The notes under the pieces are model-generated. The model searched no databases and was not told where the DNA came from. It worked only from the letters and a program-made list of their open reading frames with translations. A program made the translations under genes and the position numbers. From Bradymonadales bacterium (GTDB lineage Bacteria; Bdellovibrionota; UBA2394), in NCBI GenBank assembly GCA_007693605.1, contig REDG01000059.1, positions 1-33,079 of the forward strand: a DNA stretch of 33,079 nucleotides, in the 5' to 3' direction. Positions 16,128 to 31,974 of this stretch are shown here, piece by piece (position 1 is the stretch's first letter; every line of letters begins with the position of its first letter).

Positions 16128-19100
16128 ATGAAACGACATTTGTTCACAGTAAATCGAGTTTTGGCCCCGCTCTATGCGGGGCTTAGCCTTGTGTTGTTGG
16201 CCTGTTCATCTGAGCCGCCGGAGCCTACTGCAGAGAAGGCAGAGCCGGTGCTGCAAAAAGAGGAAGAAGATCAGCTCCCTGAAGGCAGCGAAGAGGCTTT
16301 TGATGATTCAGCCTGGGAGGCTGAATTTCAAGCCTATCTGGAGGAGCTTGTTCGCGCGTACAGAGAGAACGATCCAAGATTTGCCGACCCGACTTCGCCT
16401 CATCTATTTGGCATCTGGCGCATGCCCGACCGACTTGCACAGAGCGCAGAGCCTTCTTTGCCAGCCAGAAGTTCGTTTCTTGAACCCAAGAAATTAGACC
16501 GCCATGTCTCGCTGGATCTTCTCTCGGAAGAGACCGAGAAGCTCTACGAGCGCTACCGCCTATTCTATACTCGCTTGAGGCTCGAAGTTCCTTCAGAAGA
16601 TCAAGAACTGATCGAACAAAGAGCCGAGGAAGTCTTCTCCATTCGGAGCAGTCTGATGGAAGTTCCGAAGAATGATGACGGAGATGACCTCTATAGGGTC
16701 GAAGATCTCATTTCCGTTCTTCCCCTGCAGATCGCCGTCATCTTGTCTCACTATGAATCTTGGCATCGCTTTCTAGGGGAGAACACAGACACCCAGTTTT
16801 CAGAGGTCTCTGAAGCTCCCGTCGATGAGGGGTTGCTTCGCTTTGTGAGGGTATCAGGTGTGTCAGACAAGCTTCTGGCGGAGGAACCCCCGACCTACGA
16901 AACCGAAGAAGTGGAAATCGAAAATCTTCGAGATCTGCTTTTCGCGCTGGCTTTCGCTCGACAGGATCTTATTGCCAGCATTTATAATTTGCATTTTTCT
17001 TTCTTTGATCAGCTGAGCCTTTTGATGAGTGCTGAACAGACAAAGGCTTGGTTGGGGGCTCGATCGAAGCCTGTTTCGTTCTCTGAAATGAGAAGCTTTA
17101 GTGCAGCCATGGCCTCTCTGAACCCTCTCTATGTACCCGAAGATGAAACTGAGATTTCGGATTCGCAGAAAGCTCTCTTGTTCCATGACTTTCAGGAGAG
17201 ATTGAGAGGCCGAGAGCTTGCTGAGATCTCTTTGCAAGACCTCATTGTCGAACTCGAAGGCATTGAGCTCGATCCCAAGATTCGAGCGCGTCCGTATCGA
17301 GTAGCGTTTCAGTTTTTTCATTCCCTTCTGAGGAGTCGCGACACCGATCAAAGCCGTCTTTTTTACGGAAGAAGCCCCATGGAGTTGCTGGAGTTTCGAG
17401 CACAGAAAGCTCACCTTCTTGAGAGTTCGAGCGCCGTCTTTCAACCAGAAGACTACTTGGATCATATTTTCAATGACGGCCGTTTTCTTGAGAGACGACG
17501 GCAAGATTCGAGAACTCAAGTGGAATTCGACTTCGAATATCGGGACTGGGGTCATGACGATCTTGGCAATCCCGTCTCTTTTCGGCTTGAGGGCCTTTCG
17601 ATCAACAGATTTTGGAATCCCAGAATGCTCCGTCAAGAGCAGTATCAAGTTTTGGTCGCCAGAGATTTGCAACCCGAAGGGGAGCCGAAAAAGAGAGCCT
17701 TCTCTTTTCAGATGGCCGAGCTTTTGGATTATTCCTTTGAAGATCTTTTAAGGCTGCACTTTATTCGTTCGAAAATCCCCGACTTTGCTTTGTTCGAATC
17801 GAACTGCTTTGAGTTTGTTTGCGAAGAATACGAGTTTATAGACCTTTGGCCGAGCGCCAGGCTTCAAGAGATCGCCAATCAACTACTGGAGTTTGAGAGA
17901 GAGTTTGGCTCTCAATTTGAAGAACCTCTTCAGATTCATTGGCAGAGCCTTGAAGAGTTTAAGAGCTGGAGGTCTAGGCTATTGGGTATGCAATGGAGGG
18001 TGCGTCAGTATGCATCGAATCTTCCCTTCGAAGCACTGGGGCTTGGAAGAGAGGATATAGACGAAAGGCTTTTCTTCCACTTTCGACAAAGTCTTCGATT
18101 GTATGAATATGTAGAGAGACGACATCTCAATGACCCTCGCTTTGAGGGCTTTCCCACCCGACCCTATAGCTTTCGTTCGGTTTCTGAGCTTCATCAAGAT
18201 CTTCAGGCTCTCGTCAACCGATTGCGGGTGGAACATGAAAGGGCTCGTCAAGATCTTGCTGAGGCCTTTGAACGGCGGCTGGCTCCCTACTTTAAAGAAG
18301 AGAAGGCCTTTACCCTCTCAAGTTATCAAGAGGATTTACCCAAGAGGCTTCGAGAGCTTCGACAAGAACGGCTAAAGCTTCAAGATGAACTGCAGAAGGA
18401 GAATCTTGGATCCGCCAAGCGAGAAGCTTTAGAGGCGAGAATTGAAGCCCTGTCAGACGAGAGCCGTATGCTGCTCAACTATAACGAGGTTCTCTCGATC
18501 TATGTGAATGAGTTTAACCGAATCGAAGAGAGCACGAGTACAGCCCTCTCAGTCTGGCCAAGAGGGCTGGATTTGGTTTCGATTCGAGCCCTTGAGTTTA
18601 TCGTCAACAATTTCAGTCCGCAAGAGAATCTCTTCAACGCTATTCCATTCCAGCCTGCTCGCAACTTGATCAATTGGATTCAAGGCTTTCAATTTTCTGA
18701 TCCTACGGACCATCTATTGTGGCTGTATGAGCTAGAGTTTGTGGCTCAAGAACTGAAAATCGAGAAGTTGTTCTTTGAAAAACTAAGCAATCAAAGTTTC
18801 GAGAGTTTCTCAGAGGCCCCAGGAGAGTGGACTGGACGGACAGGTCTGTTTTTGACCCATCCAGATTCGAAGCGCGTGAGAGCCAAGATGCTTCAAAAGC
18901 TAAGAGAGCATTCCATTTTGGCAACCTTTTTTCATGGCGGAGAGCATGACGATCTGAATTTCTACTTTCGAGTTCCGACCAGTATCGATTGGCTTCGACA
19001 GAAAGAAGAGGAAGTAAAGGCTCTGTTTCTTTCTCAAGGCGCCAAACTAGACGACGACCACTGGAAGCTTCTATTGAGCGAGGCGGCTGAATTCGTCATT

Positions 19101-22100
19101 CGAGGTCAAAAAGAAGATCCAGAGGCCTGGCAAGCTCGTCGACAACAAGCCTTACGAGATCTGATTGAGCGAGACCTGTTTCGCTTGAGTCAATTGATTC
19201 AACCCAATTCGGTGCTCAGAACTTCTTTTCTAGCGCCCTGGTCTCAACAGGATCGCCGAACTTCTTGGGCCTCCACTTTGGCAAAGCTTCATCTAGAAGA
19301 AGAGGTGGACTATCGTGAGATTCTGGGGCTACTCACCGAGCTGTTTTGGGTTCGAATTGAGCAGACCCATGGGGGGATTTTGCGTCTCAGTCAAGACCAC
19401 GGCGAGCGAGTGGAAGAGATTCGCGAGCGATTGAGGGTTTTGAAAGACCAGCTTGAGTCTCGCGATAAGATTCCAGACTTCTTTCAAGACTTCTGGTTGA
19501 TTTTTCAGGATCTGTTGGATGGAGACCTTCGTGCTCTGGCGGTGCAGGCTGCAAGCCTTCCATTAGTTGAAAGGAGGTCGGCAGATGAAGCCTTTCTGTT
19601 TATTCGAGACCCTCTCTCATTTGGTCGATTCTCCAGTTTTGACTTTGAAACAAGTCTTATCTTTGAAGCGGAAGAGCAAGAAAGCCCACTTTTGCCCTGG
19701 GTCTATTTGCGGAACTCTTCGGTTCAACAGCTTTGGAGCGAGGCGCAAGAGATTCCCGAGCGCGATCAATTCCAATGGTTTTGGCGCCAGATGGTCGAAC
19801 GCGATCTCTCTTTCTTTGTCACTCCCACTCAAACTCGTGAGATTTTCCAGCAGAGAAGAAGGAATGCGGCATACTTTACTTTGGCGGACATTCCAGCCAT
19901 CTCTGCTCGAGAGATTGCGCCTGATGATCCTCATGCCAGAGCTCATGAGTCGTCGAAAGAATTGAGGCAGTTTGAACAGGCGGCGATTGGGCGAGCCCTT
20001 CACGAAGCCTCCTATACATTTTCAAGCGCCTTTGTGGCCGACACCCTGTCTTATGATCAGCTTTGGAGTTTGATCTTCATGCAGGCAATGAACAATCCAG
20101 AGGCGAATCGACTTCGAAGATTGATTCTGGAGGTTTCTCCCCGTTCTTCAAGACATCAATTGAAGGGAGACAACGCAAATGCCGAAGCGAAACGATTCAT
20201 GGAGCTTGTGGGCTTAGTCGACCCCGGCAGTGTGGAAGAGAAGCGCTTGATCGAGACCCTGAATCGGGAGGTCTACAACAGCTTACGCAAAAGCTATACC
20301 ACCTTGGTTCATTCTTGGTTTTCAAAGGCAGAGCGACTCTATCGCTCGGTCGATCGGCCCCAGTCCGGAGAGTTAAGCCATGGGGGCATTCGCCAGTTGA
20401 TTGAGTTGGCACTCGAAGACCCTGATTTTCGAAACATTCTCATTCCTCCGCCTAAAGAGACAAAGAATCCAATGGAGCAAGAGAGTCTGTTAAGTCAGTA
20501 CTCCGTCGATCAAGATACGGCTGAACACATTTTATATCATGCTCGGCTTCGGGCGCCGGCGAGTGGATTTTTTGCCTCTCGACGACTTCGAGCTCAGTTA
20601 AGGGACCTCCGAGAGTTTATGGTTCTTTCGAAGCTTTTGATGCGTTCAGAGACTGGAGGGGAAACCTCCTTTACGCATTTGCTTTCACTCTTCTTGGCTC
20701 CGAATTTAATCAAAGACCTTGCTTTGGGCTCTTCAGATCAGCTCATTCCTGAGGAAATTCTCGATGACTACAAAGAAAGAGCGATCAAGGCTCGAACTTC
20801 AGCGCTTGCCAGGCTGTTAGATTTTACTTCAGAAGAAGAACAGCTTTTGTTTCAAGAGCTTAAGCTTCTTCCTCGGCCAGAGTTTGAAAGAATCTGGACA
20901 CTTGTGGGAGAGACGATTGAGGAGTTCTTCAATCGGGTTCAGCGGATTGAAACGCGCAGTTTTGTTTATGTCAGGGAGAGAGCTCCTAAGAGGGACGAGC
21001 AGCTGACTGCCTTGATTCGTCCGAGGCCAGAAGCCCTTTCAAGCTTGTGGAGTTTGGTCGAAAAGCTTAAGGCAAAAGAGGCAGTCGTTCGAAGGAAGAA
21101 CGAGGACATGGGGCGGCTTAGACCATCGGAGGAGGGCAGCCTTTATGAGATCGATCGGGCTCATAGAAATTATTATCAGACGAGGGCCTTTCCAAGTTTC
21201 GATCTGGCCCAAGAGGCCTTCTCTTTGCTGTTGTCTGATCAGATCTATCAGGGAATGGATTTAGAGCGAGCGATTCGCGCAAGACTGAAGGGCTTTTACT
21301 CCTATTTTGAAGCAGCGAATGCGGAGTTTCGATCGAAGCTCCCCGATCTAGATCATTTGGCAAAGATTCTGACCGAAGCTCATCAGTCGGGTCGACTTTC
21401 TTTTGATGAGCTTCGGCATCAACTTCAATTCATCCTGATTCTACAGTTTGACCGAAGTCGGCGCGTCTTCCTGTCCGAAGCCGATCAAGACTTGTTCGAG
21501 AGAGTCCTGTTAGACGAACGACTTCGTGCGCAAGAACGATTGGGGATTGATTTTTATTTGGAGGGCTATCTGTGGTTTGAATTCGGTACATTGGCCGAGG
21601 GAGAGACAAGAAGAGATCTCGTTCGAGAAGATAGACGAGAAGCCTTTCTTCAAAGAATGGACGAGTGGACGCTCTTAGAAATTTCCGACCAAGTGAAAAA
21701 GATTCGAGAGAGAGTTCCCTCAGATGTTTTTGAAAGTCTTCAGATGGATGAGTGGATTGCTGCGATGGAGTCATCTTTCATTTTTGGTTCAGACTTTTGG
21801 AAAATCGAAAGCACAGTATCGGATGGCAGAGAGATGAAGCGGGTGGTTAACTCGCTGACGGCTACGGCAGGAGAGGCGACAGATATCGTAGACCCCGGAA
21901 TTCCCTTGCGAGCACCCATGGCTCGAATCGATAGTTTGCAGATTCAGTTTTGGACTCAGTGGATGAAAGAGCGGCTTTCAGGCTTGCGCGAACCCTGGTT
22001 TCGGGGCCTTGCGGGCTTAGATCTCTACCCCGGCATGAAAGAGGGGATCAACAAAGCGCATGCGAATCTGTGGCATAACCTTCAGGAAAACGGAAGAAAG

Positions 22101-25100
22101 TTTGAAACAGGAGGTCTCGATCGCTTAGGGCATGAAGAGTTTCTAAGGGAAGTCTTTGGGCCCCGCTTTCGCTACTTCGCTGAGAGTCCGGGCTTGGTGG
22201 GAAGGGTGATGGATCACGCCAAGTCCATTTCTCGAAACCTAGAACCCCATTGGAGGAGCTTTCAGAGCTTAGATCACCGAGAAACATTCGAAGCCCTGGG
22301 TTGGGGCGAGAATTGGGCGGACGAATTTTTGCATTCGATGCTCAGACAGGACGAGGAACGAAGGGCGGCACGAAAGCGAAGGGCTGAACAGCGCGCTGCT
22401 GAAAAGTCTTCAGAAGAAAACTCTCGTGCAAGAAGACTTGATTTGCCCCAAGACCTTCATGCCATGGCAGAAGAACTTTCCGCAGGTCGTCGAGGAGAGG
22501 ATAAGGCAGAGCCATCAGAGAGCAGTCAAGGGGAGGGGCCCGAAGACGACTTGGTTTCATTTCTTTTGAATCCTGGCCAGATGGACTCGATCTTTTTTCG
22601 AATCAATATGCTTCGAGAGTTGCTGCGTTTGAGGTTTCTGGATAAGTCTGAGCGCACTTGGAATATTGGTCACTCTTGGCCCGAGGCTTCAGTTGAAGAG
22701 CTGGGCGGAGAGCCTGCAAAAGAATTTCTTTTTCAGTTTGTCGATTGGTTGAGATGGGATCTTGAGTACTTTGGGGATGATTCCGTGCTGGCTTTAGATT
22801 GGTCAAAGTTTTCGGCAGATTCGCTCGAAGCCTTGGTCCACCTCTGGCTCGAAAGGGATATTTGGACTCATCGTGAGAACTCTCGTTTCTTTACCGACCC
22901 CTGGCTGAGATTTTTACCTGAGAAGCTATATTATGAACTCCTGCCAAAACTGATCGAAAGCCTTTACGAGGCCGATCTGATTGATTCATTTGAGAGCGCA
23001 TACTATCAAATCGAGAACACCTGTTTGGATCAGGAGCTCTTTGAGGGAAGTCAGGGCTTTGCTCGGAAACTGGGCTTTAGCTTAAAGCAGAAGTCGAGTG
23101 AGGGTTTGGATCACAGCCCTATGGGAGTTAGAGAGGTGATCGCGGCTGATGCCGCTGGCTGCGATCAGCGATGGGATCTTTACACTCTTGTACATGAGCT
23201 TCTGTGGATTCATGAGGTTTATCGACAGGCAGAGCAGGCTTCGAAAGATCCGCAGCTGCTGAACTGGTTTTCTCATTTTCGAGAGCTGATTCGACAAACG
23301 CGCGCCCTTTTGGGAGCAAACGAGGCCGTTCACTATCTTTCAGGCCAAGAGGGGGGTCTAGACAGTCAGATGCTTTCTCTGGTGTTGAACTTTCATCGCT
23401 TGCAAGAGTTTTCTAGACATTACGAACTAAATCTCGACCACCTCAATGTGGGAATGACTCGTCTGGCGGAGTTTCAGTTTGGAATTCTCTTGGGGGATTA
23501 TTCAGAATTGTTTGAGCAGTTGGAGCGCCAAGAGCGACCCCTTTGGCAAAAGGCTGTGGGCGTCCTCGGAGAGGGAGCCATGGGAGCCGCTGAGTTTATC
23601 TACGAATCGGCCTCCTTCGTTTTGGTCGGGCTTCCCTACTTTATTGGAGAAACGGCCGCTGTCATTTTTACACAAGCCTTTCTGAGCGAAGAACAACTTC
23701 TGTCTTTGATGGGAAGCTTTGGGGCTTGGGAAGAGGGAGCGGAAGGGCTCTATTCTAAACAGCTGCCTTGGTATGACCCGCGCCGATATAGTCTTTGGCG
23801 GATGGAGAATGTCCAAGACTTTGGCCGCTTCTCTGGCTTGCTTGCTGCCAATGTGACGATGACTCGCTTTTTTACCGCGGGTCTGACGACCAGAATTGGG
23901 GGCTTACCGAAGGAGGCCGCTACCACTGGAACTCAAGCGCTTGTGGTCTCAAGCTCTCGACGGACCTTTCAGAGTCCGGCTTTGCCGGCTGCAGAAGCTC
24001 GTTCTGGAGGACGACTAAGCCAGCTTCAGCAACGACTGGGCAGCACGAGGGTTGGGCAGGCGACTGGTCGATCGTGGTCTCGATTTGAGTCGGTCATGAC
24101 CCGACCCTTTTATATGTTTCATCGACCTCCGAATGTCGCGGGTATGGGGAGCATATCAGCCATTCGAGATTTGAGTATGGCGGGGCTTCCCCTGAGCTCG
24201 GGCCGAATTCTTTTGGGGATGCGGGCCGCCTCAGCCGGACAGATGGGAGCCATGGTCGCCGTGCATTCTACCGCCCTGGTGACCTTGATGGGTTTACCGG
24301 CCTTCTTTCACGGAGAGGGCGGAGCCTATTTGAGGGCTTTTCCCGAGCATCTCGGAACGACGATGGCCCTGATCACGACCCTAATGCTTTCTCATCGCCA
24401 GCTTCACAGTCTCAGTCGACGGCATCCGGCTTTTGCTTATGCGAATTTCGGAATGAGTCGAGGCTTGCTCGCCTATATCATGAAAGAGGCCATGGTCAGT
24501 GGAGGAGAGGTCATGAACCATTGGTGGAAGACCGAGAATTGGGCTTATGATTTTGTGGAGAATCTTATCTATCCTCTTTTGGGTCAGCTGATTGAGATCG
24601 AGCTAGAAGCCTTTGAACGGAATGAGGGCTGGCTTTATGAGGGCATTGAGTTTGAAAAGCTTTCAGAATCGGATTGGGAGCGAGAGGATATTCAAAAGGC
24701 TTGGGATCAGTACCAGGAGCATCGATTTAAGCGACAAGAGTTTTTCAGTCATTTGGCCCTGATCTCTTGGTTGATGGCGGCCCCTCGAATTGGAGACTTG
24801 TCAGAGCGAATGCGAAGGTCTGAATCGCAGCGATCGGTGAATATTGTTCAGAGTCTGTTTCCTCGAACGACTCAGCCCACCAGAGATCAAGTGGTGGCCG
24901 CGGCGCGCAATTTTACTCTACAAGAGGCTCGCATCCATCTTGCGAGAGATAAGAATCTGACGCCTAAAGAAGTGATGCCAGAGGCGGTCTCAAGGTCGAC
25001 TGAATTGCACCTGAAGCTGTTTGGCGAAGGGGCGCTCTTAAAGGCCATGAATCAAATTGCGATTTCCGGCTATGGACGAAGGCTTTCGGCTCGCGAGCGA

Positions 25101-27209
25101 CAAGAGATTCTGAGTGAGGTCAGAGAAGCTGTGCATCATGGCATCGAGCAAGCCCATTCGATTTTGAGGTCAACAGCACGAGGAGCCGATGCGATTTTTG
25201 CCAGTCAAATGAGGCAGGACTGGAACGAACTGACTTTAGAGGCCATTGTCGAAAAGACTATTAAGAAATTCGGAAGCCTAGAGAGAAGACCAGCGGAGAC
25301 CGACGCGGCATACAATAACAGGATCGCGGAAGCTCGAGATTTTTTGAATCAGCATCATGTTGACAGCATTTTGGCCATGACTCTTGAGGGGAGGGCTTAT
25401 CTTGCTCAGCTTCGAGATCTAGTCTTGTTGCGAGAGAGAGGCGAGATCGAGAGCTGGGTTATTCGAGGAGTGGACCATCTCGCATTGACTCCTGACGCTA
25501 GAGTTTTTGAAGCCCTCTTCTTTAAAAATATGACCGGTGAAATCTCGGCTCAGGCGGTTCGCGGAGGAGAAAATCTCTTAGGCCTTAGGGTGCCCGCTTT
25601 TCAAAGGGGAGCGTTGATTGAACGGATTGAAGGGGCCAGCCCTCGTCAGATGCGAGACAGAGTGAGTATTGGAGAGCAAGGAAACCAGCTTGTGGGAGAA
25701 TTTTTTCCACTCGAGATGCGTTGGGTAGATTCTCGACGAGGCTTTGAGCTGACCTATCGGGGCTCTTCTGACAATTTTAAAATTGAATTTGGCGCGCAGG
25801 GAGAGGTTTTCATTCAGGTCCGTACAAGATCGGGAGAGATAAAGCTCGAAATGCGAGATGAAACGGTTTTTCTTCAAAGAGAGGGCCGACTCCCCCACGA
25901 GTTGGGCTGGAGAGAGGCCGAGCTGATGCCCGTTCTGAAAGAGATGAATTTGCAGGCAGGGCCCGGATTTGTTGGCAGGCTTAAAGAGCTATTCTCGGGG
26001 GCCCCTCGTTTTAAACGATCGCTTCCTCCCTACCAGCAAGAGCCAGGCTTGAGCCTGCCTGAGAGAATGTTCGTTCATTTGAATCCGAGACAGACGCGCC
26101 GAGCGGCCAGGCTTTTGAACCGAGAGGAGCTCGGATGGACAGATCGCCTTGCGGAGTCTCTGACGGGTCGGCTTGGAGGCCTAAGTGTTCGTGAGCGAAT
26201 CGAATTCGAAAGAATCATTGAGACGATGAAGAACCCCGATGCCTCGGGTTTTAAGACGAGCTTTCATGGGGAGTTCAAGTGGATGGGCCGCAGAGTCAGT
26301 GGAGAGATTACGGTAGAGGTTCGAGGCCGAACGGTGAGGACGATTTTTCCAGATGGCTCTGAGGTTGTTCGTTTTAAATTGGATCAGGCTCCCGCGACTT
26401 CAAGAGCAGATAGAAGCTCTGGCTACAGTATGGAGCAAATTGAACGGATCATTGATCAATCGGGACGAGAGGCTCGACGAGCGATGGAGCGAGAAGGTCT
26501 TAGTGAAGCAGCTTTGGAGAGGAAGTTACAGGAAGCCTTGCAACGGGAGGGCAGAGAAGAGCTTGATTTGACAAGTTTGATTCGAAGGCAGAGTCAGGAT
26601 CCTCGTCGACAAGAGGGAGCTGAAACTCCGGAATACGCCATCTTTCAGTTCCGATCGCAGAGAGATTTTTCAAGAACCTCAAGAGAGAGTCGGCGGCTTG
26701 AAAATGACGGCGAGTATGTGATTACAAATGAGTTTGGGGTCGAGTTGCGAATTGGAGGGAGTCGTCAGCCCAATACGCTTCGAATGCAGCTGGAGGGATT
26801 TCCTTATTTGCTTCGAGAAACTCCGATGATCGAGATGGCTGCCGTCATCCAAACGGCTGCGATGGAGGCCAATTTGCCGCAAACCAGAATTGTTCAAGGC
26901 ATCGCTCAGTTTTGGTCCAACCAGTTCCGTCAGGCTATGACCGAGCCAGCGAACCAAGCCTCAAAGCGAGCCTCTCGAATGACACAAGAAGAAATCAACA
27001 ACAATCTTAAACTTCTTCAGATTCACTCCAACGAGTGGCGGCTGGTGACGACGGATGCTAGACTTCGACTCATTGAGACCCGCATGGAGAATCAGCTGAA
27101 TAAGTTTCCGCTCGGCGAAAACTCGACAAATGTGATTTTTCGGTGGTCGATTGAACGAGCCGCCACAGACTTGAGGGCTCGGGCCGAGTACGAGGCCAAG
27201 AAAAAATAG
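16128..27209 (+). CDS. Giant lipoprotein, 3693 aa, function unknown
   Basis: I do not recognise a family. The N-terminus is a lipoprotein signal: MKRHLFTVNR, hydrophobic core, lipobox LLAC with acylated Cys26, then SSEPPEP. Ser at +2 is compatible with outer-membrane sorting. Residues about 50-2070 are strongly helical and rich in Glu, Leu, Arg and Phe, with a coiled-coil-like stretch near 700-785. Residues about 2073-2145 are a charged low-complexity linker. Residues about 2480-2760 contain several hydrophobic segments (near 2485-2520, 2568-2590, 2694-2730, 2742-2757) separated by Arg- and Gly-rich loops. The last 600 residues mix helices with beta-like segments (near GEFKWMGRRVSGEITVEV) and end in Lys-Lys-Lys. 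An open frame of 11 kb makes the gene certain. An AAGAAGG motif lies about 14 nt before the ATG. It is probably co-transcribed with the AAA+ gene upstream. It could be a scaffold, a surface or toxin-like delivery protein, or a membrane-bridging machine; sequence does not decide. Confidence 0.9.
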   Translation: MKRHLFTVNRVLAPLYAGLSLVLLACSSEPPEPTAEKAEPVLQKEEEDQLPEGSEEAFDDSAWEAEFQAYLEELVRAYRENDPRFADPTSPHLFGIWRMPDRLAQSAEPSLPARSSFLEPKKLDRHVSLDLLSEETEKLYERYRLFYTRLRLEVPSEDQELIEQRAEEVFSIRSSLMEVPKNDDGDDLYRVEDLISVLPLQIAVILSHYESWHRFLGENTDTQFSEVSEAPVDEGLLRFVRVSGVSDKLLAEEPPTYETEEVEIENLRDLLFALAFARQDLIASIYNLHFSFFDQLSLLMSAEQTKAWLGARSKPVSFSEMRSFSAAMASLNPLYVPEDETEISDSQKALLFHDFQERLRGRELAEISLQDLIVELEGIELDPKIRARPYRVAFQFFHSLLRSRDTDQSRLFYGRSPMELLEFRAQKAHLLESSSAVFQPEDYLDHIFNDGRFLERRRQDSRTQVEFDFEYRDWGHDDLGNPVSFRLEGLSINRFWNPRMLRQEQYQVLVARDLQPEGEPKKRAFSFQMAELLDYSFEDLLRLHFIRSKIPDFALFESNCFEFVCEEYEFIDLWPSARLQEIANQLLEFEREFGSQFEEPLQIHWQSLEEFKSWRSRLLGMQWRVRQYASNLPFEALGLGREDIDERLFFHFRQSLRLYEYVERRHLNDPRFEGFPTRPYSFRSVSELHQDLQALVNRLRVEHERARQDLAEAFERRLAPYFKEEKAFTLSSYQEDLPKRLRELRQERLKLQDELQKENLGSAKREALEARIEALSDESRMLLNYNEVLSIYVNEFNRIEESTSTALSVWPRGLDLVSIRALEFIVNNFSPQENLFNAIPFQPARNLINWIQGFQFSDPTDHLLWLYELEFVAQELKIEKLFFEKLSNQSFESFSEAPGEWTGRTGLFLTHPDSKRVRAKMLQKLREHSILATFFHGGEHDDLNFYFRVPTSIDWLRQKEEEVKALFLSQGAKLDDDHWKLLLSEAAEFVIRGQKEDPEAWQARRQQALRDLIERDLFRLSQLIQPNSVLRTSFLAPWSQQDRRTSWASTLAKLHLEEEVDYREILGLLTELFWVRIEQTHGGILRLSQDHGERVEEIRERLRVLKDQLESRDKIPDFFQDFWLIFQDLLDGDLRALAVQAASLPLVERRSADEAFLFIRDPLSFGRFSSFDFETSLIFEAEEQESPLLPWVYLRNSSVQQLWSEAQEIPERDQFQWFWRQMVERDLSFFVTPTQTREIFQQRRRNAAYFTLADIPAISAREIAPDDPHARAHESSKELRQFEQAAIGRALHEASYTFSSAFVADTLSYDQLWSLIFMQAMNNPEANRLRRLILEVSPRSSRHQLKGDNANAEAKRFMELVGLVDPGSVEEKRLIETLNREVYNSLRKSYTTLVHSWFSKAERLYRSVDRPQSGELSHGGIRQLIELALEDPDFRNILIPPPKETKNPMEQESLLSQYSVDQDTAEHILYHARLRAPASGFFASRRLRAQLRDLREFMVLSKLLMRSETGGETSFTHLLSLFLAPNLIKDLALGSSDQLIPEEILDDYKERAIKARTSALARLLDFTSEEEQLLFQELKLLPRPEFERIWTLVGETIEEFFNRVQRIETRSFVYVRERAPKRDEQLTALIRPRPEALSSLWSLVEKLKAKEAVVRRKNEDMGRLRPSEEGSLYEIDRAHRNYYQTRAFPSFDLAQEAFSLLLSDQIYQGMDLERAIRARLKGFYSYFEAANAEFRSKLPDLDHLAKILTEAHQSGRLSFDELRHQLQFILILQFDRSRRVFLSEADQDLFERVLLDERLRAQERLGIDFYLEGYLWFEFGTLAEGETRRDLVREDRREAFLQRMDEWTLLEISDQVKKIRERVPSDVFESLQMDEWIAAMESSFIFGSDFWKIESTVSDGREMKRVVNSLTATAGEATDIVDPGIPLRAPMARIDSLQIQFWTQWMKERLSGLREPWFRGLAGLDLYPGMKEGINKAHANLWHNLQENGRKFETGGLDRLGHEEFLREVFGPRFRYFAESPGLVGRVMDHAKSISRNLEPHWRSFQSLDHRETFEALGWGENWADEFLHSMLRQDEERRAARKRRAEQRAAEKSSEENSRARRLDLPQDLHAMAEELSAGRRGEDKAEPSESSQGEGPEDDLVSFLLNPGQMDSIFFRINMLRELLRLRFLDKSERTWNIGHSWPEASVEELGGEPAKEFLFQFVDWLRWDLEYFGDDSVLALDWSKFSADSLEALVHLWLERDIWTHRENSRFFTDPWLRFLPEKLYYELLPKLIESLYEADLIDSFESAYYQIENTCLDQELFEGSQGFARKLGFSLKQKSSEGLDHSPMGVREVIAADAAGCDQRWDLYTLVHELLWIHEVYRQAEQASKDPQLLNWFSHFRELIRQTRALLGANEAVHYLSGQEGGLDSQMLSLVLNFHRLQEFSRHYELNLDHLNVGMTRLAEFQFGILLGDYSELFEQLERQERPLWQKAVGVLGEGAMGAAEFIYESASFVLVGLPYFIGETAAVIFTQAFLSEEQLLSLMGSFGAWEEGAEGLYSKQLPWYDPRRYSLWRMENVQDFGRFSGLLAANVTMTRFFTAGLTTRIGGLPKEAATTGTQALVVSSSRRTFQSPALPAAEARSGGRLSQLQQRLGSTRVGQATGRSWSRFESVMTRPFYMFHRPPNVAGMGSISAIRDLSMAGLPLSSGRILLGMRAASAGQMGAMVAVHSTALVTLMGLPAFFHGEGGAYLRAFPEHLGTTMALITTLMLSHRQLHSLSRRHPAFAYANFGMSRGLLAYIMKEAMVSGGEVMNHWWKTENWAYDFVENLIYPLLGQLIEIELEAFERNEGWLYEGIEFEKLSESDWEREDIQKAWDQYQEHRFKRQEFFSHLALISWLMAAPRIGDLSERMRRSESQRSVNIVQSLFPRTTQPTRDQVVAAARNFTLQEARIHLARDKNLTPKEVMPEAVSRSTELHLKLFGEGALLKAMNQIAISGYGRRLSARERQEILSEVREAVHHGIEQAHSILRSTARGADAIFASQMRQDWNELTLEAIVEKTIKKFGSLERRPAETDAAYNNRIAEARDFLNQHHVDSILAMTLEGRAYLAQLRDLVLLRERGEIESWVIRGVDHLALTPDARVFEALFFKNMTGEISAQAVRGGENLLGLRVPAFQRGALIERIEGASPRQMRDRVSIGEQGNQLVGEFFPLEMRWVDSRRGFELTYRGSSDNFKIEFGAQGEVFIQVRTRSGEIKLEMRDETVFLQREGRLPHELGWREAELMPVLKEMNLQAGPGFVGRLKELFSGAPRFKRSLPPYQQEPGLSLPERMFVHLNPRQTRRAARLLNREELGWTDRLAESLTGRLGGLSVRERIEFERIIETMKNPDASGFKTSFHGEFKWMGRRVSGEITVEVRGRTVRTIFPDGSEVVRFKLDQAPATSRADRSSGYSMEQIERIIDQSGREARRAMEREGLSEAALERKLQEALQREGREELDLTSLIRRQSQDPRRQEGAETPEYAIFQFRSQRDFSRTSRESRRLENDGEYVITNEFGVELRIGGSRQPNTLRMQLEGFPYLLRETPMIEMAAVIQTAAMEANLPQTRIVQGIAQFWSNQFRQAMTEPANQASKRASRMTQEEINNNLKLLQIHSNEWRLVTTDARLRLIETRMENQLNKFPLGENSTNVIFRWSIERAATDLRARAEYEAKKK

Positions 27210-30260: not shown

Positions 30261-30357
30261 GGGGGCTTCCGTTTATTCATAGCTGTGCTAAGAATTATTC
30301 AGTCCAACGAGAGCCTGTTTTTGCTGCGTGGAACGAAAAGATTTGAAGGAGAAGAAA

Positions 30358-30714
30358 ATGGCCGAACTGAACAAAGACAAGTTTGAAGAAATGGTAAGAA
30401 ACGGAGAGATCACTCCCAATGTATCGATTCCAGGAATCGATCTTCGAGAGTCGAACTTAAGGTCGGCCTTTTTGGTGGGCGCAGATCTTAACGGAGCCAA
30501 ATTACAGAACTCCAATCTGGCTTGTGCCAATCTAGAGAATGCCAATCTCGAGAACGCCGATCTTCGGGACTGCAATATGAGCTACACCTCTTTTAAAGGC
30601 GCCAACTTAAAAAACGCGAATTTGAAAAAGTCTCGCTTTGAATATACAGACTTTCGAGGGGCCAATCTGCAGGGGACTAATTTTGAGGATACCTCGGGCC
30701 AAAAGATCGTCTAG
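30358..30714 (+). CDS. Pentapeptide-repeat protein
   Basis: The 118-aa product has about 16 consecutive pentapeptide repeats of the A(D/N)LXX type from residue 25 to about 112 (for example ADLNGAKLQNSNLACANLEN). These fold into a right-handed square beta-helix that mimics DNA or serves as a binding surface. Residues 1-24 are a charged helix. No signal peptide is seen, so it should be cytoplasmic. The length is about half that of gyrase-protecting Qnr proteins, so a gyrase role is not implied. The start is ATG 30358 with GGAG about 8 nt before it; a GTG at 30328 would add ten charged residues and is less likely. Confidence 0.88.
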   Translation: MAELNKDKFEEMVRNGEITPNVSIPGIDLRESNLRSAFLVGADLNGAKLQNSNLACANLENANLENADLRDCNMSYTSFKGANLKNANLKKSRFEYTDFRGANLQGTNFEDTSGQKIV

Positions 30715-30746
30715 GCTCTGTCTGCACCACTGATCTGAGCGCTCTA

Positions 30747-30902
30747 GCAGGAGTTTTCGAAGCATCCGCTGGGGACCGCCTAGGATTCCAAACGCCTTCG
30801 ATTCCGTTTTGCGGCCCGCTCCTTCTCGCGACAGAACCATTTACTTCGTTTTGCGACCCAGACGCTCGAAGAGCCCCATCGGCTGGCTTCGAAAACTCCT
30901 GC
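30747..30902. repeat. 156-bp inverted-repeat element
   Basis: GCAGGAGTTTTCGAAGC (30747-30763) is repeated perfectly in inverted orientation at 30886-30902. Pairing continues inward: CCG (30766-30768) with CGG (30880-30882), then TGGGG (30770-30774) with CCCCA (30874-30878). Inside lie two near-identical 13-mers in direct orientation, CGTTTTGCGGCCC (30805-30817) and CGTTTTGCGACCC (30847-30859). No target-site duplication is obvious. It lies between the convergent pentapeptide-repeat gene and fabH. It could be a MITE- or REP/BIME-like unit, a bidirectional transcript end, or a structured RNA. No coding frame fits. Confidence 0.65.
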
Positions 30903-30908
30903 CAACAG

Positions 30909-30945
30909 TCTGTACTGCATCCATCACCGTTCATTCATGTACAGA
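30909..30945. repeat. Small inverted repeat next to the 156-bp element
   Basis: TCTGTAC (30909-30915) is inverted as GTACAGA (30939-30945) with a 23-nt spacer. It sits 45 bp before the fabH stop codon and may help end fabH transcription, but there is no T-tract. Confidence 0.35.
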
Positions 30946-30990
30946 GAGTAGTTCAGTCCATGGGTTTTGCCAGATTTACCGGTTGGACCA

Positions 30991-31974
30991 CTAGAGGCGG
31001 ATTAAGGTGGCTCCCCATGTAAAGCCGGCGCCAAAGGAGGCCATCAGAATGAGGTCTCCCTTTTTCGCCGTTCCTTCTTCAATCTTTTCGGCCAAACAAG
31101 AGGGGATGGTCGCCGAAGTCGTATTGGCGTAGCGGTCAATATTGACGGCCACCCGATCCATCGGAAGATTCAAACGCTTTGCCGCCGACTCAATGATTCT
31201 GAGATTGGCCTGATGGGGAATAAACCAACGAACTTGGTCGATCGGCACCTTAGCCCTCTCAAGCACCTCTGCAGAGATTTCTGCCATATCCACCACGGCT
31301 CGTTTGTAGACGGCCCGCCCGTCTTGAACCGCAAAATGCTTTCTGGCTTTGACGGTCTCCTCAGAGGTCGGAAGTCGAGAGCCTCCCGCTGGCATATACA
31401 AAGAGGGGAGTCCCGTTCCATCCAAACGCATAATACTCTCTAGAATTCCAGACTCGTCTTCACTCGCTTCAATTAAACTAGCCGTGCCGGCATCCCCAAA
31501 AAGAATGCAGGTCGATCGATCTTGATAGTCCACAATGCTGCTCATTTTCTCTGAAGAGACCAAAAGGAGCTTCTTCGAGCGAGCTGACTCGACCATTCCC
31601 CTCGCCACCTCCAGACCGTAGAGATAGCCGCTGCAGGCCGCCGAGATATCGAAACCCCAGGCCCGAGTGGCGCCAATTTCAGTTTGAATCACACTGGCCG
31701 TGGCCGGAAAGGGGTGGTCAGGGGTGACGGTGGTGACGATGATGAGGTCAATCTCTTCAGGCGAGACCCCCAGTTGTTCGAGCAGCCTTTTCGAGGCCTC
31801 AGCCCCCATGCTGCCGGCACTCTCTTGAGCATGAGCGATTCTTCGCTCCCGAATGCCGGTTCGCTCGACAATCCAAGCATCGTTCGTGTCGACCATCTTC
31901 TCAAGCTCTTGATTTCCCAATTTTTTTTCAGGGAAATAAGAGGCCACCCCGGTGATCTTTGCTCGCAACTGCAT
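30991..31974 (-). CDS. fabH: Beta-ketoacyl-ACP synthase III
   Basis: Starts fatty acid synthesis by condensing acetyl-CoA with malonyl-ACP. The 327-aa protein has the full FabH pattern. Catalytic Cys114 sits in DISAACSGYLYG, His254 in FIPHQANLRI, and Asn284 in NIDRYANTTSATIPSC. TNDAWIVERTGIRERR near residue 30 and GAGFTWGATLIRL at the end are also typical. Length matches the family. ATG at 31972-31974 has only a weak AGG upstream. It stands alone, without the usual plsX-fabH-fabD order, so it may be a second copy or a relocated one. It is divergent from the permease gene and convergent with the pentapeptide-repeat gene. Confidence 0.95.
   Translation of the reverse strand: MQLRAKITGVASYFPEKKLGNQELEKMVDTNDAWIVERTGIRERRIAHAQESAGSMGAEASKRLLEQLGVSPEEIDLIIVTTVTPDHPFPATASVIQTEIGATRAWGFDISAACSGYLYGLEVARGMVESARSKKLLLVSSEKMSSIVDYQDRSTCILFGDAGTASLIEASEDESGILESIMRLDGTGLPSLYMPAGGSRLPTSEETVKARKHFAVQDGRAVYKRAVVDMAEISAEVLERAKVPIDQVRWFIPHQANLRIIESAAKRLNLPMDRVAVNIDRYANTTSATIPSCLAEKIEEGTAKKGDLILMASFGAGFTWGATLIRL

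Follow-up and report, generated by a model that had tools for sequence, protein, structure and literature searches.

A dispersed family of intergenic palindromic repeats with a conserved folded head and changing stems in three or more genera of a bacterial family

The 156-bp palindromic element found near the end of the window (i.e., the whole stretch of 33,079 nt of contig REDG01000059.1 analyzed here) is one copy of a repeat family located between genes in three or more genera within a single bacterial family. Its copies are dispersed, form subfamilies within genomes and share a conserved core, and base pairs covary both in the closing stem and in an inner helix, designated P3. We consider it probable, at about 70%, that these palindromic elements, dispersed between genes, represent a new repeat family of the same kind as ERIC, NEMIS, Rickettsia palindromic elements (RPE) and REP, which is folded as RNA, is under selection on the folded product and is spread in trans. 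Sequence is the usual criterion for grouping dispersed palindromes of bacteria, while the family described here is recognizable only by its folded head, its stems having been replaced. With dozens of copies in three genera and arms of up to about 77 nt, it constitutes a natural data set that bears on whether arm complementarity reflects selection on the RNA or template-switch mutation.

The window copy is flanked by converging genes, i.e., an ORF with pentapeptide repeats (30328-30714, plus strand) and fabH (30991-31974, minus strand). The terminal arms of 17 nt reported in the preliminary description, with a spacing of 122 nt, are 100% complementary; the window contained one perfect inverted repeat of 17 bp within 200 nt, whereas 100 first-order Markov sequences contained none (mean 0.0). 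The repeat is thus not expected by chance, as had been argued from the sequence alone. The further inward pairing (CCGCTGGG with CCCATCGG; helix P2 in Table 1) was likewise found, and it is kept across the family. Both strands of this copy folded better than shuffled sequence (z = -3.86 and -3.60). The two similar internal 13-mers (30805-30817 and 30847-30859) do exist and are 92% alike, but they are private to the window copy; as the other 14 copies in the same genome differ at one or both places, the 13-mers do not belong to the family anatomy. The first 13-mer contains a one-base insertion, as if the second had overwritten it. Elsewhere in the window, an open frame of 3693 aa spans positions 16128-27209 of the plus strand.

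A BLAST search of the own genome (G000; 2.19 Mb, 79 contigs) with the 156 bp yielded 19 matches (78-86% alike). Of these, 13 correspond to nearly complete copies, four are the pieces of two further copies that are interrupted by an insert, and two are fragments. The covariance model R1, built from the 15 own copies, recovered these 15 copies and no others, and a later model (R2) gave the same 15. These full copies are scattered over many contigs and have differing neighbors, as had been anticipated for a mobile or REP family. The preliminary description had set against this a single conserved copy with compensatory changes; the compensatory changes were found (in three covariation tests, see below) and the single copy was not. 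Since the copies are scattered and also show compensatory changes, the element combines dispersal as a repeat with conservation of its fold. Of the non-autonomous mobile unit initially proposed, the dispersal is thus borne out by 15 copies, and it is this dispersal that suggests mobility.

The own copies show two stem types, CATGAGTTTTGGAAG and CCGGAGGATTTAAAGG, each with conserved flanks of its own. Between the two types both arms change together and the inside is conserved, and in each subfamily homology extends tens of bases past the stem. In L022 and L023, two of the 15 own copies, the same insert of ~54 nt is present at one and the same internal position. By eye, the two stem types seemed to have exchanged cores, which a test did not support (p-AU = 0.205). 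Open frames run through the core in several copies; a coding reading was rejected, as one-base indels break any common frame.

The pattern of changing ends and a conserved inside also bears on the possibility that the element is an ordinary MITE, the ends of which would be recognized as terminal inverted repeats by the transposase of an insertion sequence. Such a unit would be short, non-coding, dispersed and bounded by inverted ends, as is the element, and a second, MITE-like family of the same genome (family B, see below) often abuts it. However, recognition by a transposase fixes the terminal repeats, whereas here the ends differ between the own subfamilies and between genera and the core is conserved. 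No target duplication was visible at the stem ends of the 15 copies, the true ends of which are uncertain as homology runs beyond the stem. Overall, a MITE appears to be quite an unlikely explanation.

BLAST did not find the element by sequence in the 58 relatives searched, while a search with R1 over 368 genomes of the phylum gave matches in two further genera, both of the same bacterial family, which indicates that sequence searches can miss such families. With covariance models rebuilt to include the copies of the relatives (R2 and R3), about 25 copies were found in genome G003 and 5 to 6 in genome G002 (one of the 6 being partial); the same models found no repeat in G001 and G004, and the rest of the 368 genomes yielded no credible structural match. 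A match in G204 (L089, 28.3 bits) was rejected as it represents a long palindrome without the P3 motif, and the weak matches L071 and L072/L082 were excluded from the count of full members. An 18-mer pattern of the core gave 13 matches in unrelated taxa among 84,980 species, which is about chance (~7 expected by our own reckoning), and no matches in viral contigs.

The closing stems of the relatives have sequences other than those of the own genome, with arms that still match; for example, 32 nt are paired at 97% in L069 and 73 nt at 88% in L079, and the stems of L080 and L081 are made up of two or three blocks that together span about 70-77 nt. Arms differ between copies and subfamilies and reach 60-77 nt each. 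The G003 copies fall into at least three genome-specific subfamilies (X, Y and Z), and in subfamilies X and Z individual copies differ in both arms of the outer stem; L078, for instance, reads CCGGGCAGTAGATGAATT and L102 reads CCGGACGGGAGTTGAATT, each with a matching partner.

The core is a three-way junction formed by the long closing stem, helix P3 and a conserved joining strand. Read along the minus strand, the closing stem (P1/P2) is followed by P3, the variable region and the joining strand CUAGGCGGUC, after which the closing stem is completed (Table 1). P3 consists of GCU-CUYC-GA-GCG paired with CGC-GA-GRAG-(bulged G)-AGC, and its Y/R position is paired in 18 of 18 rows (C-G in 11, U-A in 6 and G-C in 1). 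Tandem G.A pairs are present in P3 in many, although not all, copies; in L080, L081, L099 and L102 (G003) Watson-Crick pairs replace the GA/GA step, as would be expected if GA/GA is a paired step. The weak helix P4 is not conserved.

Table 1. Parts of the folded unit in the window copy, with positions in the window
Feature	Position	Strand	Basis or remark
Window copy	30747-30902		156 bp; contig REDG01000059.1, own genome (G000)
Whole folded unit	30747-30902	minus (more likely RNA strand)	15 homologous copies, covariation, G.A/G.U strand argument
P1, terminal stem arm	30747-30763		17 bp perfect here; two-sided changes between copies
P1, opposite terminal stem arm	30886-30902		complementarity
P2, closing stem continued inward	30766-30773		pairs with 30875-30882
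P2, partner strand	30875-30882		pairs with 30766-30773
P3, first strand, GCUCUUCGAGCG	30863-30874	minus	paired with 30818-30830
P3, second strand, CGCGAGAAGGAGC, with bulged G and GA/GA tandem	30818-30830	minus	pairing with first strand
Joining strand from P3/P4 region to closing stem, CUAGGCGGUC	30774-30783	minus	conserved in own copies and most relatives
Variable region with weak P4; contains first 13-mer	30784-30817		copy comparison
Variable apical loop of P3; contains second 13-mer	30831-30862		copy comparison

Covariation was assessed in three alignments, all of which showed compensatory base pair changes beyond the controls, as is characteristic of structured RNA. In alignment A2 (18 sequences), 92.0% of positions expected to pair were paired as compared to 80.4% after shuffling, and two-sided changes were observed at 22 of 35 pairs (10.6 after shuffling). 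In alignment A5, which comprises 12 G003 elements aligned by MAFFT without structure (a single row of the alignment served for writing down the structure), 28 of 56 pairs showed two-sided changes versus 12.1; in the outer helix, 99.1% was paired and 11 of the 18 pairs showed two-sided changes. In alignment A4 (32 distinct sequences), which was fitted to the structural model and hence leans towards it, 94.4% of cells were paired (39-46% in slid controls), and 416 two-sided cells were observed as compared to 125.1 expected. None of 500 shuffles reached the observed paired share, number of two-sided cells or covariation score in any of the three alignments, while in A4 the pair count alone was reached by 33, and the pair-type count alone by 59, of 500 shuffles.

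Matching arms could also have arisen by template switching alone, if replication rewrote one arm from the other without selection on an RNA. Template switching is known to create and repair hairpin arms (PMC8794818), and the strand asymmetry of wobble pairs (see below) is weak. One truncated own copy (L024:984-1046) consists of the left half of the core followed directly by a stem arm and the inverted left flank; this arrangement looks like a replication template switch at a hairpin and may be such an accident. Conservation across genera of the P3 pairs, the bulged G and the joining strand, as well as covariation of P3 deep inside the unit, would be left unexplained, though, and we consider template switching on its own to be improbable.

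Tandem G.A steps are a natural RNA motif, and the GA/GA step of the minus strand would read UC/CU on the plus strand. G.U wobble pairs outnumbered A.C mismatches on the minus strand by 23 to 9 in one count and by 25 to 14 (P = 0.11), 28 to 16 (P = 0.10) and 26 to 19 (P = 0.37) in further counts; with unpaired flanks included, the numbers were 190 and 197. The lean towards the minus strand was thus seen in four of five counts and was not significant in the unbiased ones, and subfamily Z showed the opposite lean (7 A.C and 2 G.U, summed over four elements). Overall, the RNA is more likely to be made from the minus strand of the window, a preference that is statistically not firm.

The strong covariation (A4 and A5) would also fit a family of genuine small-RNA genes, acting in trans or binding a protein, that was multiplied by duplication. 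In G003, the proposed RNA strand is rich in T over the 50 nt upstream of the elements (40% T, 24 elements; P = 5 × 10-4 for T upstream versus A downstream), possibly representing a promoter, and hairpins resembling terminators occur downstream of L067 and L071. The T tract is absent, however, from the own genome (14 elements) and from G002 (6 elements), and no promoter-like site was found near the window copy. High copy number, amplification private to each genome and the lack of a shared gene neighborhood also argue against small-RNA genes, which we regard as an unlikely origin. In L070, a perfect hairpin of 19 bp (1686-1704 and 1716-1734) lies immediately beside one of the elements of the relatives.

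Under the preferred reading of a transcribed and selected repeat, a transcribed copy, more likely of the minus strand, would fold into a long closing stem topped by the three-way junction, with P3 and the joining strand held constant and the stem sequence free to change as long as the arms match. The copies may be spread by a putative enzyme that acts on the folded head in trans (no transposase was tied to the family), and the stems may be kept complementary by selection on the transcript, probably together with template-switch repair between the arms. A hairpin in place might act passively at gene ends by shielding or processing 3' ends, as has been proposed for REP, ERIC and NEMIS repeats. 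A more far-reaching and rather doubtful version would have a selfish element with the three-way-junction head as its active part (recognized by a protein or enzyme, possibly a catalytic or reverse-transcribed RNA) and with a stem that would not be ancestral sequence but would be rewritten repeatedly at each locus by arm copying, so that the shape is kept and nearly all of the sequence is replaced.

Neighboring genes were called with a rough ORF model for 46 elements (G204 was left out). Among the 40 elements with both neighbors called, 23 lie between convergent, 10 between co-directional and 7 between divergent genes, and the co-directional copies show no preferred orientation; 8 of 47 elements overlap an ORF in this rough model, mostly ORFs of ≤126 aa. 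The frequent position between convergent genes could indicate that the element terminates transcription of the flanking genes or forms a structure at their 3' ends, akin to the cruciform-forming transcript end initially considered. This interpretation is very improbable given that no terminator-like site was found in 30500-31200, that the co-directional copies lack a preferred orientation, and that the 122-nt loop and the multiple homologous copies do not fit it; the GC-rich, short-loop hairpin with a U run that defines an intrinsic terminator is not present in the element.

In the relatives, six pairs of neighboring elements, 25-1062 bp apart, are all in divergent orientation (6/6). These pairs (L069, L081, L095, L098 and L103 in G003 and L066 in G002) often combine different subfamilies, sometimes with one gene in between. 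The genes between paired elements (one Nudix gene and two ORFs without assignment) included no transposase, and 13 distinct neighboring ORFs of the relatives were mutually unrelated and included no transposase and no reverse transcriptase, the latter being the gene that accompanies the RNA in a retron (msr-msd).

We also compared the element with known systems. No match was obtained in Rfam at the gathering score, with only two non-credible matches at E ≤ 1, and a literature search carried out without the organism name found no description of the family. REPs are described as extragenic palindromes with a length of 20-40 bp that carry GTAG or CGTC as an unpaired tag, have neighbors in opposite orientation and show a bias towards convergent or co-directional genes (PMC3733652). 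The element resembles REP, BIME and REPIN units with their RAYT in being an extragenic palindrome with oppositely oriented neighbors (six of six pairs), but it is much longer (156 bp or more) and has no conserved unpaired GTAG or CGTC tag, the GTAG of subfamily X lying within a paired, covarying stem; it is thus not the strict REP that the suggestion of a REP-like pair would imply. The own genome does encode one Y1/RAYT gene (REP-associated tyrosine transposase, NF047646); a RAYT/REP family was rejected, as this gene is flanked by its own repeat, i.e., inverted 33-nt copies of GGGGTCGGGAGACGAAAGTGCCAGAC (L065:1346-1378 and 2132-2164) unlike the element. A solo copy of the RAYT-flanking repeat occurs in L021, next to one copy of the element.

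Other comparisons rest on the sections of PMC2229807 and PMC2267715 drawn on here. ERIC/IRU sequences (127 bp, enterobacterial), for which an orientation-dependent effect on mRNA stability has been reported (PMC2229807), are likewise intergenic, palindromic, present in tens of copies and folded as RNA; as far as known their host group differs, and, by description, the element is set apart by free ends, a conserved inside and a three-way junction. NEMIS/Correia elements occur in two sizes, one with a 50-bp internal insert (PMC2229807), and thus share an optional internal insert with the element, but their terminal repeats are conserved while the ends of the element are not. RPEs are also long stem-loops (105-146 bp; PMC2229807), but they additionally insert in frame within genes, whereas the element is intergenic (rough ORF model) and has no conserved frame. 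The 92 families of stem-loop-containing repeats in 40 bacterial genomes (PMC2267715), compared by description only, are of the same general kind, while the stems of the element turn over completely between subfamilies. None of the small bacterial repeats described in the consulted parts of PMC2229807, PMC2267715 and PMC3733652 keeps a conserved head while exchanging its stems (the sequences were not aligned one by one).

Family B, the second dispersed repeat of the own genome, is about 140 bp long with ends GGGGAGTGGCGCTAAGGGCCCATCTGC, forms a strong hairpin (z = -6.6) and gave 53 matches in the genome. It occurs at positions 1-57 and 130-155 of the window, at L025:1040-1180, in L016 (reverse strand of the locus) and, several times, at contig ends, and its left end often abuts the palindromic element.
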